A stretch of DNA of 39,621 nucleotides from Nitrospirota bacterium. GTDB taxonomy: Bacteria > Nitrospirota > Nitrospiria > Nitrospirales > Nitrospiraceae. The translations under genes and the position numbers were made by a program. The notes below the pieces were generated by a model. It did no database searches. It was not told where the DNA came from and saw nothing but the letters and a program-made list of their open reading frames with translations. Shown here in pieces: positions 20,656 to 32,225 of the stretch. Position 1 is the first letter of the stretch, and every line of letters starts with the position of its first letter. Location: positions 1 to 39,621 of the forward strand of contig VBOJ01000002.1 of NCBI GenBank assembly GCA_005877775.1, written 5' to 3'.

Positions 20656-21807
20656 TCAGAGTTCGGGGATGGGCATCGGCCTCGCGGACATCGCCAACGC
20701 CGGGAGAGAGGCTTTGCACTCGTTGATGACGCGCGCGAACACATCGGTGAGCATGGGATCAAAGCGGGTGTCTGCCTGGAGGGTGATCTGTTGAACGGCC
20801 GCTTCGATCGGCAATGCTTGCGGCGTGGGGTGGTCCGTGATCAAGTGATCGAATGTTTGGGCAATGGAGACGATGCGGGCGAGCAGGGGAATTCCCTCAC
20901 CCTGCAATCCGTACGGGTAGCCGGATCCGTCATACCGTTCGTGGTGATAGGAAATGATCTGGCCCACCTCAGCGGGAAGGCCAAGCGGGAGAATCATCCG
21001 GGCTCCGATTTCGGGATGGCGTTTGAGCCGGTCCTGCCCTGTGGTCTCATGCCTCTCGGTCTTGGAAAGAAAGTGATCCTCCATCGCGATGTTGCCGATA
21101 TCGTGGAGGAATGCTCCAAGCGCGAGGGATTTCTGTTCGGACAAGCTCAGGTTCAAGCGATTGGCCAGCAGCGTCGAGTAGAAGCTGACGCGACTGGAAT
21201 GGTTGAAGAGCTGCCGGTCTTTTGCCTCTAACAAGTCCGAGAGGAGCGGGATCAAGCTGGTGGAGGCACCAAACCGTGGGTCGGACTCCTGTTTCGCTTT
21301 CGTCAGCGAGGAATACTGCTCACTGAGGCGTTTCCAGGCTTGCTCACTCTCACGCTCGGCTGCTGCAAGCTCCCCCGAGTGCTTCAGGAAGCTTCGCAAG
21401 CAGTCGAGACGTTTCTTCTTCTCCAGTGTTTGATTGATCAGCGTAATCAGTTCGGTCACGTTGAACGGTTTGAGCAGATAGCCTGCCGCCCCGTGTCGAA
21501 TCCCTTCCATGGCTGATTTGAGGCTCCCGTACCCGGTGATGATGATCACTTCCACGTCCCCGTGCTCGATTTTGATGTCTTGCAGCAGGTCAAGGCCCTG
21601 CCGGTCAGGGAGCTTCTGATCGAGCGTCACCAAGTCAACGGGGTGTTCCTTCAGCACTCGCATCGCCACTTGGCCATTTTCAGCCACTTGGATATTGAAG
21701 AATGGACGGAGGATCACTTTGAGTGCGTCGCGAGGGCCAGCCTCGTCCTCGACCACCAGAATGGTGGGTTTGAGGGAATCGGGAATCATCATGGGGACCT
21801 TACTCAT
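20656..21807 (-). CDS. Response regulator with HD-GYP (c-di-GMP phosphodiesterase-type) output
   Basis: This 383-residue protein has an N-terminal receiver (about 14-130) with D63 as likely phosphoacceptor and K113 in LLKPF. A helical linker follows, then an HD-GYP domain (about 180-365). HD-GYP enzymes hydrolyse cyclic-di-GMP to GMP using two or three metal ions. Visible ligands include H203 in FNHSSRVS, H235/D236 in HDIGN, H264 in RHPEIG, and H288/H289 with D293 in HHERYDGSGYP. The usual HDIGK lysine is asparagine (N239). It is the last of three minus-strand regulators, downstream of the NtrC-type gene and the protein with two PilZ domains, so this locus probably handles c-di-GMP. Confidence 0.92.
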   Translation of the reverse strand: MSKVPMMIPDSLKPTILVVEDEAGPRDALKVILRPFFNIQVAENGQVAMRVLKEHPVDLVTLDQKLPDRQGLDLLQDIKIEHGDVEVIIITGYGSLKSAMEGIRHGAAGYLLKPFNVTELITLINQTLEKKKRLDCLRSFLKHSGELAAAERESEQAWKRLSEQYSSLTKAKQESDPRFGASTSLIPLLSDLLEAKDRQLFNHSSRVSFYSTLLANRLNLSLSEQKSLALGAFLHDIGNIAMEDHFLSKTERHETTGQDRLKRHPEIGARMILPLGLPAEVGQIISYHHERYDGSGYPYGLQGEGIPLLARIVSIAQTFDHLITDHPTPQALPIEAAVQQITLQADTRFDPMLTDVFARVINECKASLPALAMSARPMPIPEL

Positions 21808-22010: not shown

Positions 22011-23423
22011 TCATTCTTGATACATCTGTGTCTGGTCATTGACCACTTGGGGTTCGGGTCGGCTGATTCCCAAGGTATCCATCCTGTATTTGAGCATCCG
22101 GCGGCTGATTCCCAGGGCGGCTGCGGCGTGAGTCTGGACGTAGTTCGTTCGTTTGAGTGTGTCCAGGATAATCTCTTTCTCAAACTCCATCACGGCTTTT
22201 TCGAGAGAGAGCCGGCCTGAGAGGGTGTCTTCGCGCAGGGAAGAGGAGCGCGTGTCGGTTCGACAGACAGCGGGGAGGTGCTCAGGGAGGATCACGTTTC
22301 CCTGCGACCAGACGATTGCTTGCTCGACTACATTTTCGAGTTCCCGAACGTTGCCCGGCCAGGAATACTTCATAAGTAACTCGAGGGCCTCCTTGGAGAA
22401 TTCCTGGCTGGGGCGTTTGTCCTCCTCGTTCCGCTTGGCCAGAACGTGCTTGGCGAGGAGAGGGATGTCTTGCGCCCGGTCACGCAGGGCAGGCAGGAAG
22501 AGTGTGATCACGTTGATCCGGTAGTAGAGGTCTTCCCGAAACTGCCCTTGCCGAACGAGATCCTCCACATTCTTGTTGGTCGCGGCAATGATTCTGACAT
22601 CCACTTTGATTGATTGAGTGCCACCGATCCGCGTGAACTCGCGTTCCTGCAGGACCCGGAGCAGTTTTGCCTGGGTGGCGGGGCTCAGATCGCCGATCTC
22701 GTCGAGGAAGAGGCTGCCGCTGTGCGCAAGCTCGAACTGCCCCACCCGGCGTGCGGAGGCGTCCGTAAAGGAGCCTTTCTCATGTCCGAACAGTTCGCTC
22801 TCGATCAGTGTTTCCGGCAATGCCGCGCAGTTGAGCGGGATAAACGGGCGATCCCGGCGGGGGCTGTTGTAGTGGATCGCGCGAGCGACCAGTTCCTTGC
22901 CCGTTCCGCTCTCGCCGGTGATCAGCACAGTCGTTCGGCTGTCCGCGACCTGCTCGATTTTTGAATAGATCTCTTGCATGCTCGGGCTCTTCCCGACGAG
23001 GTTGTGGAATGAATAGCGATTGGCCACTTGCGCGCGGAGATATCGGACCTCCCGTTCGAGGTCATGTGTGTCGAGAGTTTTGGCGACGATCAGACGGAGC
23101 TCTTCGACGTCAAACGGTTTGGTGACATAATCGGCCGCCCCCATTTTCATGGCATCCACAGCCGTTTTGACCGTTTTGGTGCCCGTCAGCATGATCACGG
23201 GTATGCTCTGGCCCTCCGATCGGATCGTCTGCAGGACCTCCAATCCATCCGAGCCCGGTAGCATCACGTCCAGGATGACGAGGTTCGGAGCGTCCTGCCG
23301 GAACAGGTCCAGGCCTGTCCGCGCGTCCGGGGCGCAGGACACTTCGTAAATCGGTTCGAGGACCGCCTTCAGAGTGGCGCGAATGCCCGGTTCGTCATCG
23401 ACCAACAGAACCCGTTTCTTCAT
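22011..23423 (-). CDS. NtrC-family sigma-54-dependent response regulator
   Basis: This 470-residue activator has a receiver (about 1-120; D9/D10, D52, K102), an AAA+ sigma-54 interaction domain (about 140-380) and a C-terminal Fis-type helix-turn-helix (about 410-453). Walker A is GESGTGKE near 170 and Walker B is LFLDEIGD near 238. The sigma-54 contact loop reads GSFTDA at 217-222 rather than the canonical GAFTGA. It should activate sigma-54 promoters when phosphorylated, but I found none in the window with both -24 and -12 elements. GGGAGGGG lies immediately upstream of the ATG. It lies 263 nt downstream of the large multidomain gene, with no stand-alone kinase adjacent. Confidence 0.94.
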   Translation of the reverse strand: MKKRVLLVDDEPGIRATLKAVLEPIYEVSCAPDARTGLDLFRQDAPNLVILDVMLPGSDGLEVLQTIRSEGQSIPVIMLTGTKTVKTAVDAMKMGAADYVTKPFDVEELRLIVAKTLDTHDLEREVRYLRAQVANRYSFHNLVGKSPSMQEIYSKIEQVADSRTTVLITGESGTGKELVARAIHYNSPRRDRPFIPLNCAALPETLIESELFGHEKGSFTDASARRVGQFELAHSGSLFLDEIGDLSPATQAKLLRVLQEREFTRIGGTQSIKVDVRIIAATNKNVEDLVRQGQFREDLYYRINVITLFLPALRDRAQDIPLLAKHVLAKRNEEDKRPSQEFSKEALELLMKYSWPGNVRELENVVEQAIVWSQGNVILPEHLPAVCRTDTRSSSLREDTLSGRLSLEKAVMEFEKEIILDTLKRTNYVQTHAAAALGISRRMLKYRMDTLGISRPEPQVVNDQTQMYQE

Positions 23424-23686
23424 ACCCCTCCCGCACGGTTGACGGATGGGATTGCATCGGGCTGAGCAAAAGAGAAGTCATCCCAGACGGACAGGCTCAG
23501 GCAAGAGGGCCCGTCGGTGTATCGTCTCGGGAGGCGAGGGGTTCGCACAGAGATGAAGCGGCCTCGTACGGTCGCGGCAATGCCCTTGAGGAGACCGCTG
23601 AACGCGCAAAACTCCATGCTCGGCCACAGGTGCTCGTTAGATTAGGATCAGGTATGCAGGCAGGAGTATACACCGTGCTAGGATTT

Positions 23687-26600
23687 TCAGCCAGCAGAAT
23701 CCGGTTTTTCAGCGACTGCAATATACACTTGGTTCGCGAAGGTGGAATAGAGGCGAGGCCGTACCGCGCCACTGGCAATCAAGAGTATAAGGAGTTTCTG
23801 CTTATCGAAGAAGCGAAACAGCCCGGCTCGTTCTCCCTGCAGAATCTTTCCCAAACTGCCCACAAGCTGTTCGGCCTCCTTCACGTCATCTGGCCGTCGG
23901 GCCGTGCGCCTCAGGTTGCTCGCGATGGGAGCCAAATCCGCATAGGGCTTGAAGCTGGCCATGACCAACTTTCCCCGGGGCGACAGCACCCGCATCAGCT
24001 CGCGCAGGGTGAACAGGGGGTCCTGGAGGTACCCGATAACCAGATTGCAGAGAATGCGATCGAACTGATTGTCGCGGAACGGAAGGGGCCTGTTCAGATC
24101 GACGAGGCTCAGAGAGGCTCCGACGGGCGGTCGCGCGATGGAGTCGGCAGCAAACTGTCCCCGGAGTTCATCTGCCGCGTTGCTCAGGTTGCGTCGAGTC
24201 AAAGCGAGGGCGCGGGGGACAAGGTCCACGCCGACATAATGGGGCGGACGAAACTCCGGTCCCCTGCTGTGCAGCCGACGGTAGGCGTAGTTGAGCAGAA
24301 GAAACATGCAGAACGTGCCGTTCCCACAGCCAGCGTCCAGAATGCGCTCTCCCCTCTCCAATGGTCCCAACAGATCGTAACTATGGTGCAGGAGTTGCCA
24401 ATAGTCGGGAGAATTGGCGAGGCCACGAAGGGATTCCAGATACTCTCCCCAAAACTCAACCGCTTCGGCTTTCGTCAATCGCTGTTGGAGTCTGGCTCGC
24501 TCGCGCTCTATTCGTGTTTGGCGAGCGATTTCACGCGGCAACGGCTCTCGCACTGGTCCTTTGGAGGACAAGGGGTAAAGCTGTTCAAGACAACTGGCGG
24601 CCACTTCTCGGTAGATCGCCAGATCCCGTTTCGGATTCTCATGGAGGCGGTAGGACGGCTCAGGAAGAACGTATGACCCTCGAAATCGGGGACCTAAGGC
24701 GGTCTGTGGCTGTGTCACCGAGTCGTGGCGAGCCGCCGCACCGTTCTCCGACGTAAACAGGATGACAGGGGTGCGGATCTGCTCTGCGTCCTTCACCGTC
24801 GTTTTAATGTCGGCGTATCCTCCTTTCATGGCGTCTTCCAGCCAATGATCCGCATTGATCGTGCAGCCTAACAGGTTGATCACGCCCAGCCGATCCCCTC
24901 GCGCGTGGATGTCGATGAGGTCTTTCTGGTGGACCGACAGCAAGGCGGCTTTCACATCGAGGATACTGCTGAGGAGAACCAGGAGAGTGACGCGACGATC
25001 CTGAGCGACGGCTTTGAGGGCGACGCGAGCGGCGAGGCCGGTCGCGACCAATACAATGGGACTGGCCGGCCATGTGCGTTGCGCATAGTCCAGCAATTCA
25101 TGCAGATCCTGCTGCATGGAGGTCAACGTGGTGTTGACGATGCTCCCGTCGCTTTCCCCCACATGGTCGGTGTGATCGTAGCGGAGGACATGGAATCCAT
25201 TGCTGGCGAGGTAATAGGCCAGCGCGATGTACTCCTTCTTCGTTTCGCCGTAGGATGGTGAGATGATCACGATGGGGGAGACAGGAGGGAGTGTGTCCCG
25301 AGGCTTGTCGTGGTACAACGCGATACGCTGGCCTCTCTTATTCCAGCACTCTGTGAGCATGCTGACCAACCTGGTCGGTTCCTCCCTCCCGTCAACACGG
25401 AAGGGAGTGGTTAGCAATCGTGCGATCATCTGTTCAAGAACTTGTTCAGCCTCCTCGTTGATATGCAAGAGTCGAATGCCGACGAGCAGAGGACTGCCTG
25501 AATCGCCCGCCGTCCCTACTTCCGGAACGGTCGTGTCAGGGGCCATCCAGACGACTTCTCCGGTCACGGTGCAATCGGACGAGACAGCCACGGCGCCGGT
25601 CGACTGAGTCGCGAGCAGATCGGAGGGGGGAGACAGATGCAGAAGAAGACGACGCCCGAGCAGGTATTGCTGCGCGCGAACTCGCAGACAGACACCGCCC
25701 GTGCTGAGGTTGACGGTGGCGCCAGCATAGTGGCGAGTTCTTGAGGAAGAGTCTTCAGGCTCGACACGGACTGGGAGGGCCAGGTTCACTCGAACGGCCA
25801 GCCGGTATTCCGGGGGATCGCCCTCTTCTTCTTCGGAAGAACTTGAAGGCAACGCGGTGGACTGGACGGCTCCGGTCCCGGCAGGGCTGATTTCCAGCAG
25901 AAGATCCCCAGCCTCTTGGGGAGTCAGCAGGGCTGTGACCGTGACCGAAACGGACCGTTCCTGGAGGCCGTCGAGAAGTGAGGCAAGGATCAGTCTTTCA
26001 TCATTCCCAAGCTCCCCAAATTCGATGGCGAGGCCCAGCGCAGATTTTGCCGCAGCTTCACCGAGCCGGTCGGCCACCTCACGGATGCTCCGGAGTGTCG
26101 CCGGCAGCCCCATCACCCCCACATCGCTGATGAGGCTAATCCGGACCGGTTGGTTCTCGGTGGCGAACAGCACGCCTTCGCACACGATATAGGCACCGCC
26201 CAGGCTGAGGTTCAGCGTGGTTCCTTCCCAGGCTGTGTCTTTCAGAATCAGCCGGGTCTTGAGCCGCACCTCGATTCGGGGCGCGCCTCGTCGTTCGGGG
26301 TGCGGGAGGACCGGTTCCTTTTCCAGTAGGGTCACGGTGTCTGGCTCGTGAGGAGGCGAAGTGCGAAGGGGAGGTGGCTGCCCTTGAGACTCTTCTGCTC
26401 CCGCGACGGGACCGGCCTGCGGTGCCTGGAGCGTCTCGATAGCCGGCAGCCAGACTCGCATGCGAGTCCCAACGGCAGAAGGACGGTCCACCTCGATGAC
26501 CCCGCCATGTTCCTGAATGATCCGGGAGGCGGCCGTCCACTCGATGCCGGACTCGCCGGCGTCTGTTTTCTCGCGATCAGCCTTCCCCTGACCTTCGGAC

Positions 26601-27952
26601 GTGATTGCGATCTCCACATAGGAAGTGCCAGCCGGAGCTGGCAGCGAGGCGGACAGAGAAGAGATTTCTCCGGCTCCAACCATCCTCGTAGTCACGCGTA
26701 GCCGGCCTCCCTGACCGGCCTCCTGTAGCGCACGCCCGCTCTGAGTGATCAGACTCAGGAATGCCTGCTGGAGTCGCCCGGAGTCCGCGAAAACCTCGGG
26801 CAGTGTCCGGTCCAGGTGCGATTCGACCTGGATGGAGTGAACTCGTAGCTCGGTGCCTGCACGGGAGAGGACCTCCTCGAGGACGCGGGTGATTGAAACG
26901 GGAAGGCGTACCGGTGGTTGAGGCTCGGTATAGGCGACCAGAGCTTTGCCGATCTGTGCCGCGCGGGAGGCCTGCGACGCGACCACCTCTAGCTGATTTT
27001 CCAGCTGCAGATCCTGGACCTTCTTCAACAACCGCTCGGTATCGTCCAGGATTCCGGTGAGCGGGCTGCTGAGCTCGTGAGCCACCTGGGCAACGGATCG
27101 TCTCAATTCCATCAACCGGTCGGTCTGGCGCAGTTGTTCCTCCAGGCGCTCGATACGTGCTTGTTCCTGCGTTTGCTTGTGGATGTCCCGAACGACACCG
27201 ACCGTTCCGAGGAACTGCCGCTGGCGATTGTAGAGACCTGTGGCAGCGAGTTCGATTTCCCGGATGCTTGTCGGTGTCACAGTCCCGGTCTTGGTCGCCA
27301 ATTGGAGTTGAAGGTTGCGAGTGGCTCTGACGCCCGTGCGCCGTTCGTTGAATCGCCGTTCGGCTATCCGTGCCGCATCCGAGTGGACGAGTTTCGAATA
27401 GTGACTCCCGATCAATTCCTGGGGGCTGTATCCAAGCTGAGTGGCAAAGTCGGGACTGACGTGCACGAACCGTCCTTCCGTGTCCAGCTCATAGACCATA
27501 TCCGGCATGGTCTCAATCAGACGGATGTAACGCTCGTGGGTCAGATCCAGCCGCGTGCGCAGGTCTCGTTTTTCGAGGACCTCCCGCGTGACGATCATCA
27601 ACTCTGTCAGGAAAGCTGGAGATTTCTTAAACAGGTAATAGTCTGCGCCCGCGCGCATCGCCTGGACGGCTGTCGTGGCATCGGTCTGCTCGGTCTGCAC
27701 GATGACCGCGGCGTTCGGGGCCCGCTGCCTGAGTTCCGGGAGAATGTCCAGCCCGCTGCGGGGTGACAGTTGCTCGTCCAGCAGAATGACGTGCCAATCC
27801 TGTTTGGATGCCCATTCCAAGGCTTCCTCTGCAGAATAGACCGCTTCCACCCGACAACCGGGATAGAACCCACGCATGCTGATCGTGACCAGCTTGATCT
27901 CCTCGGCTTGCTCGTTCACAAGCAGCAAGGTGATCGGGTCGGTCTGCGGCAT
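23687..27952 (-). CDS. Giant signalling protein: REC-PAS-pseudokinase-PilZ-PilZ-LuxD-like-methyltransferase
   Basis: This is a 1421-residue single frame. Receiver 3-130: D59 in LLDEQLS, with N13/E14 in place of the usual acidic pair. PAS 138-256 and a short coiled coil. Histidine-kinase DHp with H292 in AHELSSPL, then an ATPase-like region 381-503 lacking the N-box asparagine and DxGxG. First PilZ 553-658, with RGAPR (555-559) and NLSLGG (581-586). Second PilZ 714-844, with RLAVR (717-721) and NLSTGG (748-753). LuxD-like alpha/beta-hydrolase 858-1126 (NGFHVLRYD, DHVGESDG). SAM methyltransferase about 1166-1421 with ILDAGCGNGTF. ATG 27952 is preferred because TGAGGAT precedes it; an in-frame ATG at 27994 lacks such a site. 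It probably integrates phosphorylation and c-di-GMP; the output substrate is unknown. Confidence 0.9.
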   Translation of the reverse strand: MPQTDPITLLLVNEQAEEIKLVTISMRGFYPGCRVEAVYSAEEALEWASKQDWHVILLDEQLSPRSGLDILPELRQRAPNAAVIVQTEQTDATTAVQAMRAGADYYLFKKSPAFLTELMIVTREVLEKRDLRTRLDLTHERYIRLIETMPDMVYELDTEGRFVHVSPDFATQLGYSPQELIGSHYSKLVHSDAARIAERRFNERRTGVRATRNLQLQLATKTGTVTPTSIREIELAATGLYNRQRQFLGTVGVVRDIHKQTQEQARIERLEEQLRQTDRLMELRRSVAQVAHELSSPLTGILDDTERLLKKVQDLQLENQLEVVASQASRAAQIGKALVAYTEPQPPVRLPVSITRVLEEVLSRAGTELRVHSIQVESHLDRTLPEVFADSGRLQQAFLSLITQSGRALQEAGQGGRLRVTTRMVGAGEISSLSASLPAPAGTSYVEIAITSEGQGKADREKTDAGESGIEWTAASRIIQEHGGVIEVDRPSAVGTRMRVWLPAIETLQAPQAGPVAGAEESQGQPPPLRTSPPHEPDTVTLLEKEPVLPHPERRGAPRIEVRLKTRLILKDTAWEGTTLNLSLGGAYIVCEGVLFATENQPVRISLISDVGVMGLPATLRSIREVADRLGEAAAKSALGLAIEFGELGNDERLILASLLDGLQERSVSVTVTALLTPQEAGDLLLEISPAGTGAVQSTALPSSSSEEEEGDPPEYRLAVRVNLALPVRVEPEDSSSRTRHYAGATVNLSTGGVCLRVRAQQYLLGRRLLLHLSPPSDLLATQSTGAVAVSSDCTVTGEVVWMAPDTTVPEVGTAGDSGSPLLVGIRLLHINEEAEQVLEQMIARLLTTPFRVDGREEPTRLVSMLTECWNKRGQRIALYHDKPRDTLPPVSPIVIISPSYGETKKEYIALAYYLASNGFHVLRYDHTDHVGESDGSIVNTTLTSMQQDLHELLDYAQRTWPASPIVLVATGLAARVALKAVAQDRRVTLLVLLSSILDVKAALLSVHQKDLIDIHARGDRLGVINLLGCTINADHWLEDAMKGGYADIKTTVKDAEQIRTPVILFTSENGAAARHDSVTQPQTALGPRFRGSYVLPEPSYRLHENPKRDLAIYREVAASCLEQLYPLSSKGPVREPLPREIARQTRIERERARLQQRLTKAEAVEFWGEYLESLRGLANSPDYWQLLHHSYDLLGPLERGERILDAGCGNGTFCMFLLLNYAYRRLHSRGPEFRPPHYVGVDLVPRALALTRRNLSNAADELRGQFAADSIARPPVGASLSLVDLNRPLPFRDNQFDRILCNLVIGYLQDPLFTLRELMRVLSPRGKLVMASFKPYADLAPIASNLRRTARRPDDVKEAEQLVGSLGKILQGERAGLFRFFDKQKLLILLIASGAVRPRLYSTFANQVYIAVAEKPDSAG

Positions 27953-28423
27953 CAGATCCTCATCACGGTCGGAATGTTTGGCTAACGATGGCATGCGGGC
28001 TGCCGCGCATCGCTAGCCATAATAGAGGAGGACGGTCTTGAATGTCAGCCCACACGTAGGATCCACAAAGAGGATCACGGCTCGTCGGCATCGATCAGTC
28101 CTACTCGGCTTGAACAGGGCACAGTGGCGCCCCGCCCTCTGAGGGCTCTATTGAATAGCACGTTCCCCCAGGGCTTTGGCAATCCATTGCATGAGGGGGC
28201 AGCCCAACTTTCGTAGGGGGAAGGAGGAGCGGGAGGATTCAAGGCCAGAAGATCCGCAGAGCCGGGGTTGCCAGAACGGACCGATGCATCATCTGGATAT
28301 ATAGTGTGAAGTAGAGGTTTTTTGATCAGAACTATCTATATGCAGAGGCGGCTAGATATGGCTCCCTTCGAGTTGGTTGAAACACGCTAAGGAGGGACCA
28401 AAAAAAGCTGTCGTTTCAGGGGG
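27953..28423. other. Intergenic region upstream of the giant signalling gene
   Basis: I see no gene in these 471 bases. They should contain the promoter of the minus-strand giant gene. An AT-rich patch with partly symmetric ATATATAG and CTATCTATAT words lies around 28297-28341. An A7 run near 28400 would read as a T tract on the minus strand after the gene at 28424, but no strong stem precedes it. Confidence 0.45.
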
Positions 28424-29425
28424 TCACTGCAGCGGGGAGGTTCCGTCGGTTGGGCAGGTGCCGGGCGTCATGTATAAAAGGTAATTGCCCATGCCATGCT
28501 GGACGCGGGAATCGTGCAACGGATGGTGATAGACCATGACCATCTCATAGTCGTCTTTCCTGTTGACTGAGAATCCTCTGGCATCCTTGAAGACCTGATG
28601 AGGTTGAAAAGCCAGGAACTGGCCGTCCTGCTCCACGTCAGGAACGGTACGCAGCAGGGTTCGCTGCGACGTCTTGTTCTCCAGGGCGATCAAGAGCAGC
28701 TCGTCGTGGCCGTGCGGATAGGCGAACTTCACGCATCCGTCCATCCGGAATTTCAGCGGCGCCGACAGAACGTGCACGCCAGGCTTGATTTCAATCCCTT
28801 CGTCGGTCTGATCCTTGCCCCGCTGTCCGAACTTGCTGTAGCAGACGATGTTAACCCCGACCTGATAGACGTCCATCTCTTTGATCGGGGTTCCTTCCGG
28901 AGCCATTTCCATCGTGAAGGTGGCCATCACGTCTTTGGTGGGAGGGGCCTTGTGGTAGAACGCGACCACAGACATGAGCTTTTGCCCCTTTCCAAGTTTC
29001 ACCCCGTAGCCATCAGGGAAACGGGCTTCGGTCAGTTCCAGGCCCGCGCCGCTGAAGAAGAGGGGCTCTCCAGGACAGGAAACGCTTTCCTTGTCGGTGT
29101 TGAGCATGAGGATATGGTGGAGGTACTGTTGCGGCAACGGCTTCCCATCCTTTGTGAACACAGCGGATTTGTAGCCGATGAGGTACATGTCTTTGGGAAG
29201 CTGGAAGGTGTGTTTGGGCATGCTGGCAGCCAGATCGCCGTCGTGTGGGGATGGCAGGTCAATGGGCCCGAACGTCAACGTGACGGTATTGCCTTCAATG
29301 GTGATGTTGGTGGTGGTTTGATTCTTCAAGGTCGGAACGGCGTGATCATGGCCGTGATTGTCTGCCGAGAAGGCCGGCGTCACACAAGCAAGAATCAACG
29401 CTGTGGCCACTACAGAGCGATCCAT
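28424..29425 (-). CDS. Exported protein resembling copper type II (PHM/DBM-like) monooxygenases
   Basis: This 333-residue protein has a signal peptide (about 1-20, ending AFSA) followed by a His-rich segment. Two beta-rich halves then resemble the tandem jelly rolls of copper type II monooxygenases. The first has a HH pair at 103-104 (YLHHILMLN) and H158 (AFYHK). The second has H238/H240 (PHGHD) and M312 (QHGMGNYLLYM), close to the HxH plus Met copper site of that family. Such enzymes hydroxylate aliphatic carbons using copper. The assignment rests on motif order only. ATG 29425 is preceded by AGGAGG. It lies 67 nt after the exported SnoaL-like gene, probably co-transcribed. Confidence 0.6.
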   Translation of the reverse strand: MDRSVVATALILACVTPAFSADNHGHDHAVPTLKNQTTTNITIEGNTVTLTFGPIDLPSPHDGDLAASMPKHTFQLPKDMYLIGYKSAVFTKDGKPLPQQYLHHILMLNTDKESVSCPGEPLFFSGAGLELTEARFPDGYGVKLGKGQKLMSVVAFYHKAPPTKDVMATFTMEMAPEGTPIKEMDVYQVGVNIVCYSKFGQRGKDQTDEGIEIKPGVHVLSAPLKFRMDGCVKFAYPHGHDELLLIALENKTSQRTLLRTVPDVEQDGQFLAFQPHQVFKDARGFSVNRKDDYEMVMVYHHPLHDSRVQHGMGNYLLYMTPGTCPTDGTSPLQ

Positions 29426-29492
29426 GTGTCCTCCTGACAAGTTGCCCAACATCTATGCCGACCAGGGGAGGCCTGTCCTCTTCGTCGGTCTG

Positions 29493-30377
29493 TCAGCGTA
29501 TGGCGGCTGATGTCGGGGGCGGGGTCAGCCGCTTCCAGACATAACTGCCACCGTGTTCGCGTGGCGGAATATTGTTCCTCTCCCCAACCCGCGTGTACCA
29601 CCAAATCCCTTTCGCGGCAGTGCCGTCCTCGGACAGCAGGACTTCGAACCCGCCTTCTCTGTCGTTTCCGGTCTGACGCCAGGTTCCCTGCCATTTCGGA
29701 CCGGCAACTCCGGTGGTTGTCAACCTGCCGCCCTGGTGTGTATAGGAGCCGTTGCCTGAGCGGTCGAGCGTGGCCTTATAGGATTTGTCCTCCTCCTCGA
29801 TCTCCCATTCTCCGCTCAGGTCAGGGGTCTCCAGTTCGTGAACGGTTCCAGACGCCGTCAGGATGGACGAGGACGGAAGTTGACTGGCGGGAAATGCGAT
29901 GAGTCCTCGATTGCGAGAGGACTCGTGCCAGGAGGTCAGAACCCAGCCGCCGGCTCGGCGCTCCAGAACTCCGGTCTCGCGCAAAGCCAACAGGGTGCGC
30001 CGTTGATTGGAACCCTGTCCGATATACCGGATATAGTCCAGTTCCATCGCGAACCAGGCAGTCTCGCCGCGGGTCCAGACTGTTAATGCGATGATCGGGA
30101 TCTCCAGCCGAGCCACCATCTCAAACTCCGCCTGCAGGTCTCGGGCGAGTTCGCCCCAGCCTACGTATTTTCGTCCCTCGATCGTATAGCTGATGATATC
30201 CACGTCGTGGGCGATCAGCCTCGAGAGAGTGGCAAGATCCTTCTCGGCGTTGGCCCGCACCAGGGCACGGAGCACGGCTTCCGGGCTGTTCGTGTCGGCG
30301 GCAATTCCAATTGGTTCGAAAAAAGTGAAAAGGAGGATGACCCAGGACCAGACACGGAGACTGTGCATCAGGCGCAT
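29493..30377 (-). CDS. Exported SnoaL/NTF2-like protein with C-terminal beta domain
   Basis: This 294-residue protein has a signal peptide (about 1-27). A SnoaL/NTF2-like domain follows (about 30-150: AVLRALVRANAEKDLATLSRLI, DVDIISY, GWGELARDL, WVLTSWHES). The C-terminal part (about 185-290) begins DLSGEWEIEEE and has regular beta strands with WQGTWRQTG and IWWYTRVG, resembling lipocalin-like or beta-barrel domains. NTF2-fold proteins bind small ligands or isomerise substrates; no catalytic residues could be assigned. It is the first gene of a likely two-gene operon with the copper-monooxygenase-like gene. Both products are exported, so they may act together in the periplasm. Confidence 0.75.
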   Translation of the reverse strand: MRLMHSLRVWSWVILLFTFFEPIGIAADTNSPEAVLRALVRANAEKDLATLSRLIAHDVDIISYTIEGRKYVGWGELARDLQAEFEMVARLEIPIIALTVWTRGETAWFAMELDYIRYIGQGSNQRRTLLALRETGVLERRAGGWVLTSWHESSRNRGLIAFPASQLPSSSILTASGTVHELETPDLSGEWEIEEEDKSYKATLDRSGNGSYTHQGGRLTTTGVAGPKWQGTWRQTGNDREGGFEVLLSEDGTAAKGIWWYTRVGERNNIPPREHGGSYVWKRLTPPPTSAAIR

Positions 30378-30501
30378 GCAGAGAGTTCCTGCAGGGTTGG
30401 TATCATGCCGAGCATGTGAGCTCGAGGCAGTGCCGAATTAATTGAGGTAAAATTACATGGCACGGCGCTGCTTGTCAAACAGTTTTTCCTGCGACAGCCT
30501 G

Positions 30502-31290
30502 TCAGGCCGTCGCGGCGCAGACCACGACGGTCACGTTGTCTTCTCCGCCGCGCCGATTGGCTTCTTCCACGAGCGCGAGACAGGCGGCTTCTGGTGATCT
30601 GCCTGCGTGAAGGAGTATGTCGGCAATCCGGCCGTCGTCCATCATCTTGGTCAGTCCATCCGTACAGAGCAGGATCAGATCGTCTGGTTGGAGCCGGTGG
30701 GTCGAACTATCGGGCTCGACGACGTCCCCAATACCCAGCGCGCGGGTCAGGACATGGCGCAGGGGATGCGTGGCAGCGTCCTCCGGCGAGAGCTGGCCGC
30801 TCCGGACATGTTCTTCAACCAAGGAATGGTCCTGCGTGAGCTGGAGCAGGGCACCAGCGCGGAGGAGGTAGGCTCGGCTGTCGCCCGCGTAAGCGAGACT
30901 CAGGTGCGGGATCGAACCGGACGGGATGCTGAGCACGACGATAGTGGTGCCCATGCCGCCCAGGAGTGGATGCTCGAACGCGTGTTTGCAGATGGTGTGG
31001 TGGGCGGCTTCGGTGAGCTGGCGCAACTGGGTCTCAGTCCAGGCTTGCCCAGCCTGAGACAAGCTGTCTGTGCCGGCCTGTCTTCTGACCTGTTCCGTGA
31101 TGGACTCCACCGCCAATCGACTGGCCACGTCCCCCCCCGCATGTCCTCCCATGCCGTCGGCCACGATCCAGAAGCCGACATCATTCAGCACCGCAAACGC
31201 GTCCTGGTTGGAAGAACGGACTTGCCCAATGTCTGTGAGTCCTGCTCCCCGCCAGGTGATGCTCTGAGCCGTCTTGCTGCGTGCCATCAT
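30502..31290 (-). CDS. PP2C-family serine/threonine protein phosphatase
   Basis: This 262-residue protein is a PPM/PP2C phosphatase of the bacterial Stp type, using two metal ions to dephosphorylate Ser/Thr. Motifs are GQVRSSNQDAF, VADGMGGHAGGDVAS, YAGDSRAYLLR, QDHSLVEE, CTDGLTKMMDD and RGGEDNVTVVV, covering the metal-binding aspartates. Length is typical for the stand-alone enzyme. No partner Hanks-type kinase gene is in the window. It starts 7 nt after the stop of the upstream RNase H-fold exonuclease gene, so the two share a transcript. Confidence 0.94.
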   Translation of the reverse strand: MMARSKTAQSITWRGAGLTDIGQVRSSNQDAFAVLNDVGFWIVADGMGGHAGGDVASRLAVESITEQVRRQAGTDSLSQAGQAWTETQLRQLTEAAHHTICKHAFEHPLLGGMGTTIVVLSIPSGSIPHLSLAYAGDSRAYLLRAGALLQLTQDHSLVEEHVRSGQLSPEDAATHPLRHVLTRALGIGDVVEPDSSTHRLQPDDLILLCTDGLTKMMDDGRIADILLHAGRSPEAACLALVEEANRRGGEDNVTVVVCAATA

Positions 31291-31297
31291 CAGAGAT

Positions 31298-32056
31298 CTA
31301 GCCCTTCGGTCCGTATCGTGCAGCCAGCCTGCTATAGAGCAATTCTGCCAGTGGTTCTAGATTGCGCGTGTCGGCCTCGTTGTACCGAAGCAAGCGGTCC
31401 CGCGCAGGCCTTTCTCCATTGCCCCAGGCGTGCCAGAGCCTGACCGCGTCCCACCCGTCCAGGCCTTGAAGGTCCGGTGCTCTCCGAATGCCCATCCGTC
31501 CCTCGATGTGTTTCAGGCCTCCGTCAAGGCCGAGACGGCGTGCGGCAAAGCAGAGGTCCAGGTGCGGATGATCCAGGACGACGCCGGGAAACGTGGCGCG
31601 CAGGTACGGCAGATCAAACCGGCTGCCGAAGAAGGTGACGACGAGATCGTAGTTGGCCAGCTCCTGGTTCAGCCGGTGTTCGGTGAGCGACTCCCCTTGT
31701 ACGAGACTGGTCATACGGCCATTGCCATAGAGGCCGACGACCGTGACCGCGTCGGCGGTGGGAGGACCACCGGTGGTCTCGATGTCCAGATAGACGGTTC
31801 GTGATCGGAAGGTGTCGAACAGGCGCCAATGGTCACGAGGCTTGAGACATTTCGAGAAGTATCGGGAGTGTCCGGCCTGGAGATGGACGACGGCCGAAGA
31901 GATGGTGGCATCATACAGACTCTTCCGCTCCGGTGAGAGGCCCGGAATCGAGCAGCGGGCAAGGAATGTCCGCCAATCCCTCACGCCGCTTTGCCAGAAG
32001 CGACGTTCCGTCTCTTCGCCGACGCCCTTCAGCAAGATGAAGGTGGATTGAATCAT
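31298..32056 (-). CDS. RNase H-fold 3'-5' exonuclease (YprB-like)
   Basis: This 252-residue protein has an N-terminal helical segment (IQSTFILLKGVGEETERRFW) resembling a helix-hairpin-helix element. An RNase H-like exonuclease domain follows, starting TVYLDIETTGG. Further DEDD-type acidic residues appear in VVTFFGSRFDLPYL and in RYNEADTRNL near the C-terminus. The family (YprB_RNaseH-like) is related to the exonuclease domain of family B polymerases; biological substrates are poorly known. ATG 32056 was chosen because the helical element then begins at once and CAGGG lies upstream; an upstream ATG would add 23 residues. It is divergent from the cyclophilin-like gene and co-directional with the PP2C gene 7 nt downstream. 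Confidence 0.85.
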   Translation of the reverse strand: MIQSTFILLKGVGEETERRFWQSGVRDWRTFLARCSIPGLSPERKSLYDATISSAVVHLQAGHSRYFSKCLKPRDHWRLFDTFRSRTVYLDIETTGGPPTADAVTVVGLYGNGRMTSLVQGESLTEHRLNQELANYDLVVTFFGSRFDLPYLRATFPGVVLDHPHLDLCFAARRLGLDGGLKHIEGRMGIRRAPDLQGLDGWDAVRLWHAWGNGERPARDRLLRYNEADTRNLEPLAELLYSRLAARYGPKG

Positions 32057-32225
32057 GAATGCCCTGAGTTTGCAGCCGTCACAGGTGGATTCTAGCCTTG
32101 ATTTCATGGGGGAAACAAGATACATTCCGCCGGGAACACGCCGTCACAGGCGTGAGTGACATGAAGCGCGTGCGCACAGCGGGCATCGCAGGAAGGGGAC
32201 GCAGGTTCCTGGACCGTTCGGTGTG

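Follow-up and report, generated by a model that had tools for sequence, protein, structure and literature searches.

The locus raises the question of why a regulatory protein would keep an acyl-hydrolase domain that has apparently lost its catalytic residues. In the window, i.e., the whole stretch of 39,621 nucleotides analysed here, this domain is part of P0001, a protein of 1435 amino acids encoded by a single minus-strand ORF free of frameshifts, in which receiver, PAS, degenerate histidine kinase and two PilZ domains precede it and a SAM methyltransferase domain follows (Table 1). Much of P0001 consists of non-canonical signalling domains: the receiver (residues 15–140) of almost every family member is without its acidic pair, and the kinase region (residues 281–525) is degenerate too. 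The latter retains H306, and its N box and G1 box are gone, which leaves it short of an active histidine kinase. Both PilZ domains carry the motifs RxxxR and [D/N]xSxxG and are, by these motifs, predicted c-di-GMP receptors, and the methyltransferase keeps 39 of 45 family invariants. The methyltransferase of the family is weakly BioC-like (3.2e-12 for the L044 sequence); unlike in the window, its SAM motif is degraded as well in the copies of the Nitrospira clade (L048, L049, L099–L124; e.g., DVGVGHG or DAEVGHG).

Table 1. Features at the P0001 locus (window coordinates; residues refer to P0001).
Feature	Position	Strand	Evidence or remark
P0001: REC-PAS-HK(degenerate)-PilZ-PilZ-LuxD(triad lost)-methyltransferase	23687..27994	-	ORF calling and domain profile searches
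Receiver domain, Pfam residues 33-125	27620..27898	-	Acidic pair degenerate (NE); D73 and K kept
PAS domain, Pfam residues 155-271	27182..27532	-	Pfam
Degenerate histidine kinase region, residues about 297-518	26441..27106	-	Weak Pfam HisKA/HATPase_c, below cut-off
PilZ domain 1	26015..26299	-	Pfam; motif RRxxxR / NLSLGG present
PilZ domain 2	25421..25804	-	Pfam; RxxxR / NxSxxG found (c-di-GMP motif)
LuxD-like alpha/beta-hydrolase domain, residues 880-1165	24500..25357 (about)	-	Pfam and structure match
S914, replaces invariant glycine of the P-G-Y-G loop	25253..25255	-	Alignment; oxyanion-hole site would be expected here
G986 (GGC; originally numbered G972), replaces nucleophile serine = LuxD S114	25037..25039	-	Alignments
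G1085 (codon 24740-24742; originally G1071), replaces LuxD D211; A1087, replaces invariant W	24734..24742	-	Alignments
Y1115 (codon 24650-24652; originally Y1101), replaces LuxD H241; S1114, replaces invariant L	24650..24655	-	Alignments
SAM methyltransferase domain, C-terminal, Pfam residues 1208-1355	23690..24499	-	Pfam; motif DAGCGNG intact
Kinase relic, first ~52 aa	23465..23620	-	tblastn to L056 kinase, 58% over 52 aa, 1e-12; also whole-genome search
Kinase relic, last ~28 aa, different frame, runs into NtrC-type gene	23398..23481	-	Match to same kinase
Next gene, conserved (92% to L056): sigma-54 response regulator of NtrC/AtoC type	22011..23423	-	Profiles, synteny
REC-HD-GYP response regulator (c-di-GMP phosphodiesterase type), synteny conserved	20656..21807	-	Profiles, synteny

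The original prediction of a LuxD-like domain was borne out by profile, PDB sequence match and predicted fold. The Pfam model of the LuxD family, Acyl_transf_2 (PF02273), matched residues 888–1095 with an E-value of 1.9e-19 and 70.5 bits against a cut-off of 20.3, and the NCBIfam LuxD model gave 3.5e-20 with a score of 72.6, which lies below its stricter equivalog cut-off of 420. On the same region the general Hydrolase_4 model reached only 5.3e-12, and the top entry of a phmmer search against the PDB was 1THT (8.3e-17; next entries at about 6e-6), the structure of LuxD, the myristoyl-ACP thioesterase of Vibrio harveyi. Likewise, the AlphaFold model of residues 880–1435 (mean pLDDT 85.7) returned 1THT at rank 1 in Foldseek (1.6e-16), and a second structure aligner placed 1THT on top with Z 30.6 over 277 residues at 2.7 Å rmsd, followed by esterases with Z 28.2 and lower, i.e., the predicted alpha/beta-hydrolase fold is nearest to LuxD. 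A better identity as a non-LuxD hydrolase was rejected, as LuxD outscores both the general hydrolase models and the esterase structures. A model of the intact N. defluvii protein was of moderate confidence (pLDDT 76) and was excluded from the analysis. The three motifs named at the outset (NGFHVLRYD, HVGESDG and ATGLAARVA) all occur in P0001, whereas the alignment to LuxD, first described as free of gaps, contains short ones. The proposed span of 24573–25380 located the domain correctly but not its exact limits, since the domain is slightly longer, and the residues singled out as replacements were the right ones under numbers 14 too low, counted from the second (internal) ATG.

Loss of the Ser-Asp-His triad became evident from comparison with about 45 relatives in which it is present. 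A profile of 27 intact relatives matches 1THT at 1.9e-35 over residues 14–291 and brings S114, D211 and H241 of LuxD under the S, D and H that are invariant in the family; in these three columns the window reads G, G and Y, and the aligned phmmer match also sets S114 on G986 and D211 on G1085. In the predicted model, G986 has a strand on one side and the following helix on the other, as expected of the nucleophile elbow; G1085 comes after the penultimate strand of the sheet and Y1115 after the final one, which are the usual sites of the acid and the histidine in this fold. The earlier claim that all three catalytic residues are gone thus held when S, D and H were followed across the homologues. 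A search for an intact triad elsewhere in the LuxD domain of the window found none. T985 and H1118 were considered as relocated catalytic residues and rejected, as both also occur in intact-triad relatives, and a sequencing error is an unlikely cause with six separate codons altered.

Those six changes (G914S, S986G, D1085G, W1087A, L1114S and H1115Y) are the only departures of the window from 43 LuxD positions that are invariant among the 27 intact sequences, and all of them lie at or beside catalytic positions. The probability that six random changes among the 43 would take in all three triad residues is 0.0016, and in a leave-one-out control any intact sequence departs from at most two of the positions invariant among the remaining ones. 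Since so few invariants are altered, and these only around the catalytic site, catalysis would have gone while the scaffold remained. Among other Nitrospirota, a sample that lies outside the window allele, dN/dS of the LuxD domain in triad-less copies ranges from 0.05 to 0.20, and because this is similar to intact copies, the domain appears to be maintained there without its triad. The pattern of changes and the purifying selection elsewhere both fit the pseudoenzyme that had been proposed, i.e., a fold kept with catalysis lost. Its sequence marks the window domain as a LuxD-type acyl hydrolase that is catalytically dead and has a conserved scaffold.

Homologues of the protein were present in 33 of 61 related genomes. 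A wider scan with one genome per species found 76 loci, among them a weak Streptomyces match that was set aside, and 75 were kept (L051–L125); these carry Nitrospirota-type titles, with one labelled Nitrospinota, so that the family is confined to Nitrospirota within the scan. Its common core is PilZ-LuxD-methyltransferase, the N-terminal receiver-PAS-(kinase) part being optional. Some Nitrospira hold two copies, e.g., the L064 genome (N. defluvii) at about 940.6 kb and 1507.7 kb, with an intact LuxD-methyltransferase and a 7TM kinase at one site and a long triad-less copy at the other.

More interesting than the loss of the triad alone is the family-wide link of the LuxD triad with an adjacent 7TM kinase. 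Next to copies with intact S, D and H, the product of the following gene downstream is a histidine kinase that begins with a 7TM part (Pfam HisKA_7TM) and continues with GAF, HisKA and HATPase domains. An intact triad coincides with this adjacent kinase at 41 loci, plus three cut by contig ends, and a lost triad with the absence of an adjacent 7TM part at 28. There are two exceptions, namely L075, where the triad is lost and the 7TM part present, and L092, where the triad is intact and the 7TM kinase not adjacent; the L092 genome encodes two kinases of this type elsewhere. The loci are related, so the Fisher p of 8e-18 for triad versus adjacent 7TM is not usable as a test. Kinases of L052, L053 and L057 were absent from the ORF calls and were identified by tblastn. 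In triad-less copies of the Nitrospira clade, and also at L045, L077 and L097, the remaining kinase matches that of L056 only from about residue 285–310 and hence is a GAF-HisKA-HATPase protein without the 7TM half.

In the window, a lost triad is accompanied by a kinase reduced to a relic. Between P0001 and the NtrC-type gene both ends of the kinase gene are left, and about 650 codons between them are missing, i.e., the adjacent receptor kinase gene is deleted. The assumption that the 7TM kinase had been lost from the whole window genome proved wrong, since a second kinase of this type is found on contig C92.

The number of such events is small. A tree built from four genes of the neighbourhood unites the window with L056, a member of the same genus with an intact triad and a full kinase, as fully supported sisters; on this tree the triad changes four times and the 7TM state three times, and a sign test is not significant. 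The tree of LuxD-methyltransferase is readable as a single loss, with long branches making it unreliable. The kinase losses differ, however, as the middle and C-terminal bulk is gone in the window and the N-terminal 7TM half in the Nitrospira clade, which argues for separate losses. Between the window and L056, synonymous divergence stays at 0.35 and 0.56 for the two regulators and at 0.46 for PilZ2, against 2.4 for LuxD and 1.8 for the methyltransferase. Along the gene, it climbs sharply at the PilZ2/LuxD boundary and drops again at the 3' end. The LuxD-methyltransferase cassette may have been exchanged by recombination in the lineage of either the window or L056, and because the jump in divergence suggests such an exchange, the triad loss is not datable from the split between the two. 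Plain acceleration in the window after this split was rejected as the sole cause, as synonymous divergence of LuxD and methyltransferase jumps too.

The second kinase stands in a different enzymatic context. On contig C92 of the window genome (L135; G000:C92, 8170–12700), a fusion of PilZ to a FabH-like beta-ketoacyl-ACP synthase III (PilZ-KASIII), with the expected Cys, His and Asn visible in the alignment, overlaps a 985-aa 7TM-7TM-GAF-HisKA kinase directly after it. PilZ-KASIII is uncommon, with 4 positive genomes among 235 in the order, and all four genomes have a 7TM kinase adjoining it and no intact LuxD; conversely, PilZ-KASIII was searched for in genomes with intact LuxD and found in none, a non-co-occurrence that is not significant with four KASIII genomes among 235. 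In G046, the genome of locus L075, PilZ-KASIII lies between a LuxD with an S-to-N nucleophile and the 7TM kinase, which accounts for this main exception to the link described above. The syntenic gene of G012 encodes receiver-PAS-PilZ-methyltransferase, with LuxD and one PilZ removed, and is followed by PilZ-KASIII, the 7TM kinase, the NtrC-type regulator and HD-GYP; G033 shows this same series from PilZ-KASIII onwards, with its upstream side cut by a contig end. Although the numbers are small, two different PilZ-tied acyl-processing enzymes share one slot ahead of the same receptor-like kinase. In the window genome, the PilZ-KASIII/kinase pair on C92 may have taken over from the dismantled system and may now serve in its place.

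Further genes of the locus were compared with known regulatory systems. Models of the XrtA system match both the 7TM-GAF kinase (PrsK, TIGR02916; 1e-43, 149.9 against a curated cut-off of 300) and the NtrC-type regulator (PrsR, TIGR02915; 1.9e-129, 432.4 against 502.6), but both matches stay under the curated cut-offs and the AtoS/AtoC models score better for kinase and regulator. Upstream, a conserved block (window 28424–32125) encodes a 342-aa protein without Pfam match, which is 72–85% identical in relatives, as well as a SnoaL-like protein, an Stp1-type PP2C phosphatase and an RNase H superfamily protein.

Taken as a whole, the comparison points to a dead domain that once was the enzyme half in a LuxD-methyltransferase fusion and was retired upon deletion of the 7TM partner kinase, and not to a fatty-acyl sensor. 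In the intact relatives, the LuxD half could take an acyl chain from acyl-ACP, as would be expected from the family of 1THT, and the methyltransferase half could methylate the product, yielding a lipid-derived signal. The adjacent 7TM-GAF histidine kinase might then read this signal and address the NtrC-type and HD-GYP regulators, with the PilZ domains and HD-GYP suggesting c-di-GMP as input and output. Intact LuxD-methyltransferase and 7TM kinase would thus form a so far undescribed synthase/receptor module for an acyl signal; in the window lineage, the receptor kinase would have been deleted and the hydrolase triad lost, and the protein would survive in the role of a regulatory scaffold, its methyltransferase still looking intact. 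We assign this reading a probability of about 0.5, and it is weakened by the few independent events on which the association of triad and 7TM part rests.

The sensor role put forward in the original prediction, in which the dead domain would still hold a fatty acyl chain and pass its presence on to the methyltransferase, PilZ or receiver domains, could draw on the retained scaffold with 37 of 43 invariants, the confident predicted hydrolase fold and the finding that triad-less copies in other genomes are under purifying selection. A precedent for a dead alpha/beta hydrolase acting as receptor comes from another family: GID1, which perceives gibberellin and is related to carboxylesterases, lacks the histidine of the active site (PMC4728528); binding by the window domain would be conjectural. 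However, PilZ, PAS and receiver domains offer other routes of sensing, and the selection figures come from copies of other genomes and not from the window's own allele, and we regard a sensor as rather unlikely. The opposite view, a domain in decay that persists as a structural remnant under relaxed selection once the system had been switched off, would be in line with the deleted partner kinase and with the excision of the LuxD domain from the same gene in G012. It is quite improbable given an ORF of this length without frameshift, changes that cluster in the catalytic centre instead of spreading and the low dN/dS of the other triad-less copies.

The locus might also represent an ordinary c-di-GMP/two-component regulator, where LuxD-methyltransferase modifies a lipid or envelope component and the neighbouring kinase merely regulates. 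While the context of PilZ, HD-GYP and a sigma-54 regulator would suit this explanation, as would the lack of a known signal, it leaves unexplained why the triad tracks the 7TM sensor half of the kinase and not its catalytic half, and why KASIII replaces LuxD ahead of the same kinase; on balance, it appears unlikely.

Among described systems, LuxD of V. harveyi shares fold and family with the window domain, and its triad aligns in the intact relatives, whereas the window copy lacks S, D and H and is fused to PilZ, PAS, receiver and methyltransferase domains, and the LuxC reductase and LuxE synthetase families are absent from the ten neighbouring proteins scanned. In Ralstonia, the methyltransferase PhcB makes methyl 3-hydroxymyristate, which is sensed by the histidine kinase PhcS (PMC11960443; PMC8578825), and PhcB/PhcS types split strains into two signal groups independent of phylotype (PMC11960443). 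Set beside it by description only, this system could serve as a working analogy, with a methyltransferase acting on an acyl product plus a histidine kinase, and with a two-group split that may be comparable to the divergent cassette of the window family; here, by contrast, one protein joins the methyltransferase to an acyl hydrolase and PilZ, and the kinase is of 7TM-GAF type. As counterpart of a PhcB-type carboxyl methyltransferase the window offers a predicted methyltransferase domain with intact SAM motif, and in place of a cognate sensor kinase encoded alongside it holds a deletion scar only.

In our literature search, no paper was found that joins LuxD, methyltransferase, PilZ and histidine kinase, nor one that joins Nitrospira, quorum sensing and LuxD. 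An undescribed family of cell-cell signalling systems in Nitrospirota, comprising a PilZ-controlled LuxD-methyltransferase for the signal, a 7TM-GAF receptor, a swappable PilZ-KASIII synthase and a pseudoenzyme left after receptor loss, is a tentative and somewhat doubtful extension of the module reading. Some of the major nitrite oxidizers in soils, waters and wastewater plants belong to the Nitrospira-type bacteria. If the module reading is true, a synthase/receptor pair visible at the genome level, and gained, exchanged and dismantled as one unit, would provide a directly testable lead to lipid signals of Nitrospira-type bacteria, and the window would be a clear natural case in which the loss of a receptor is accompanied by the loss of catalytic residues in its synthase, with the protein scaffold retained.
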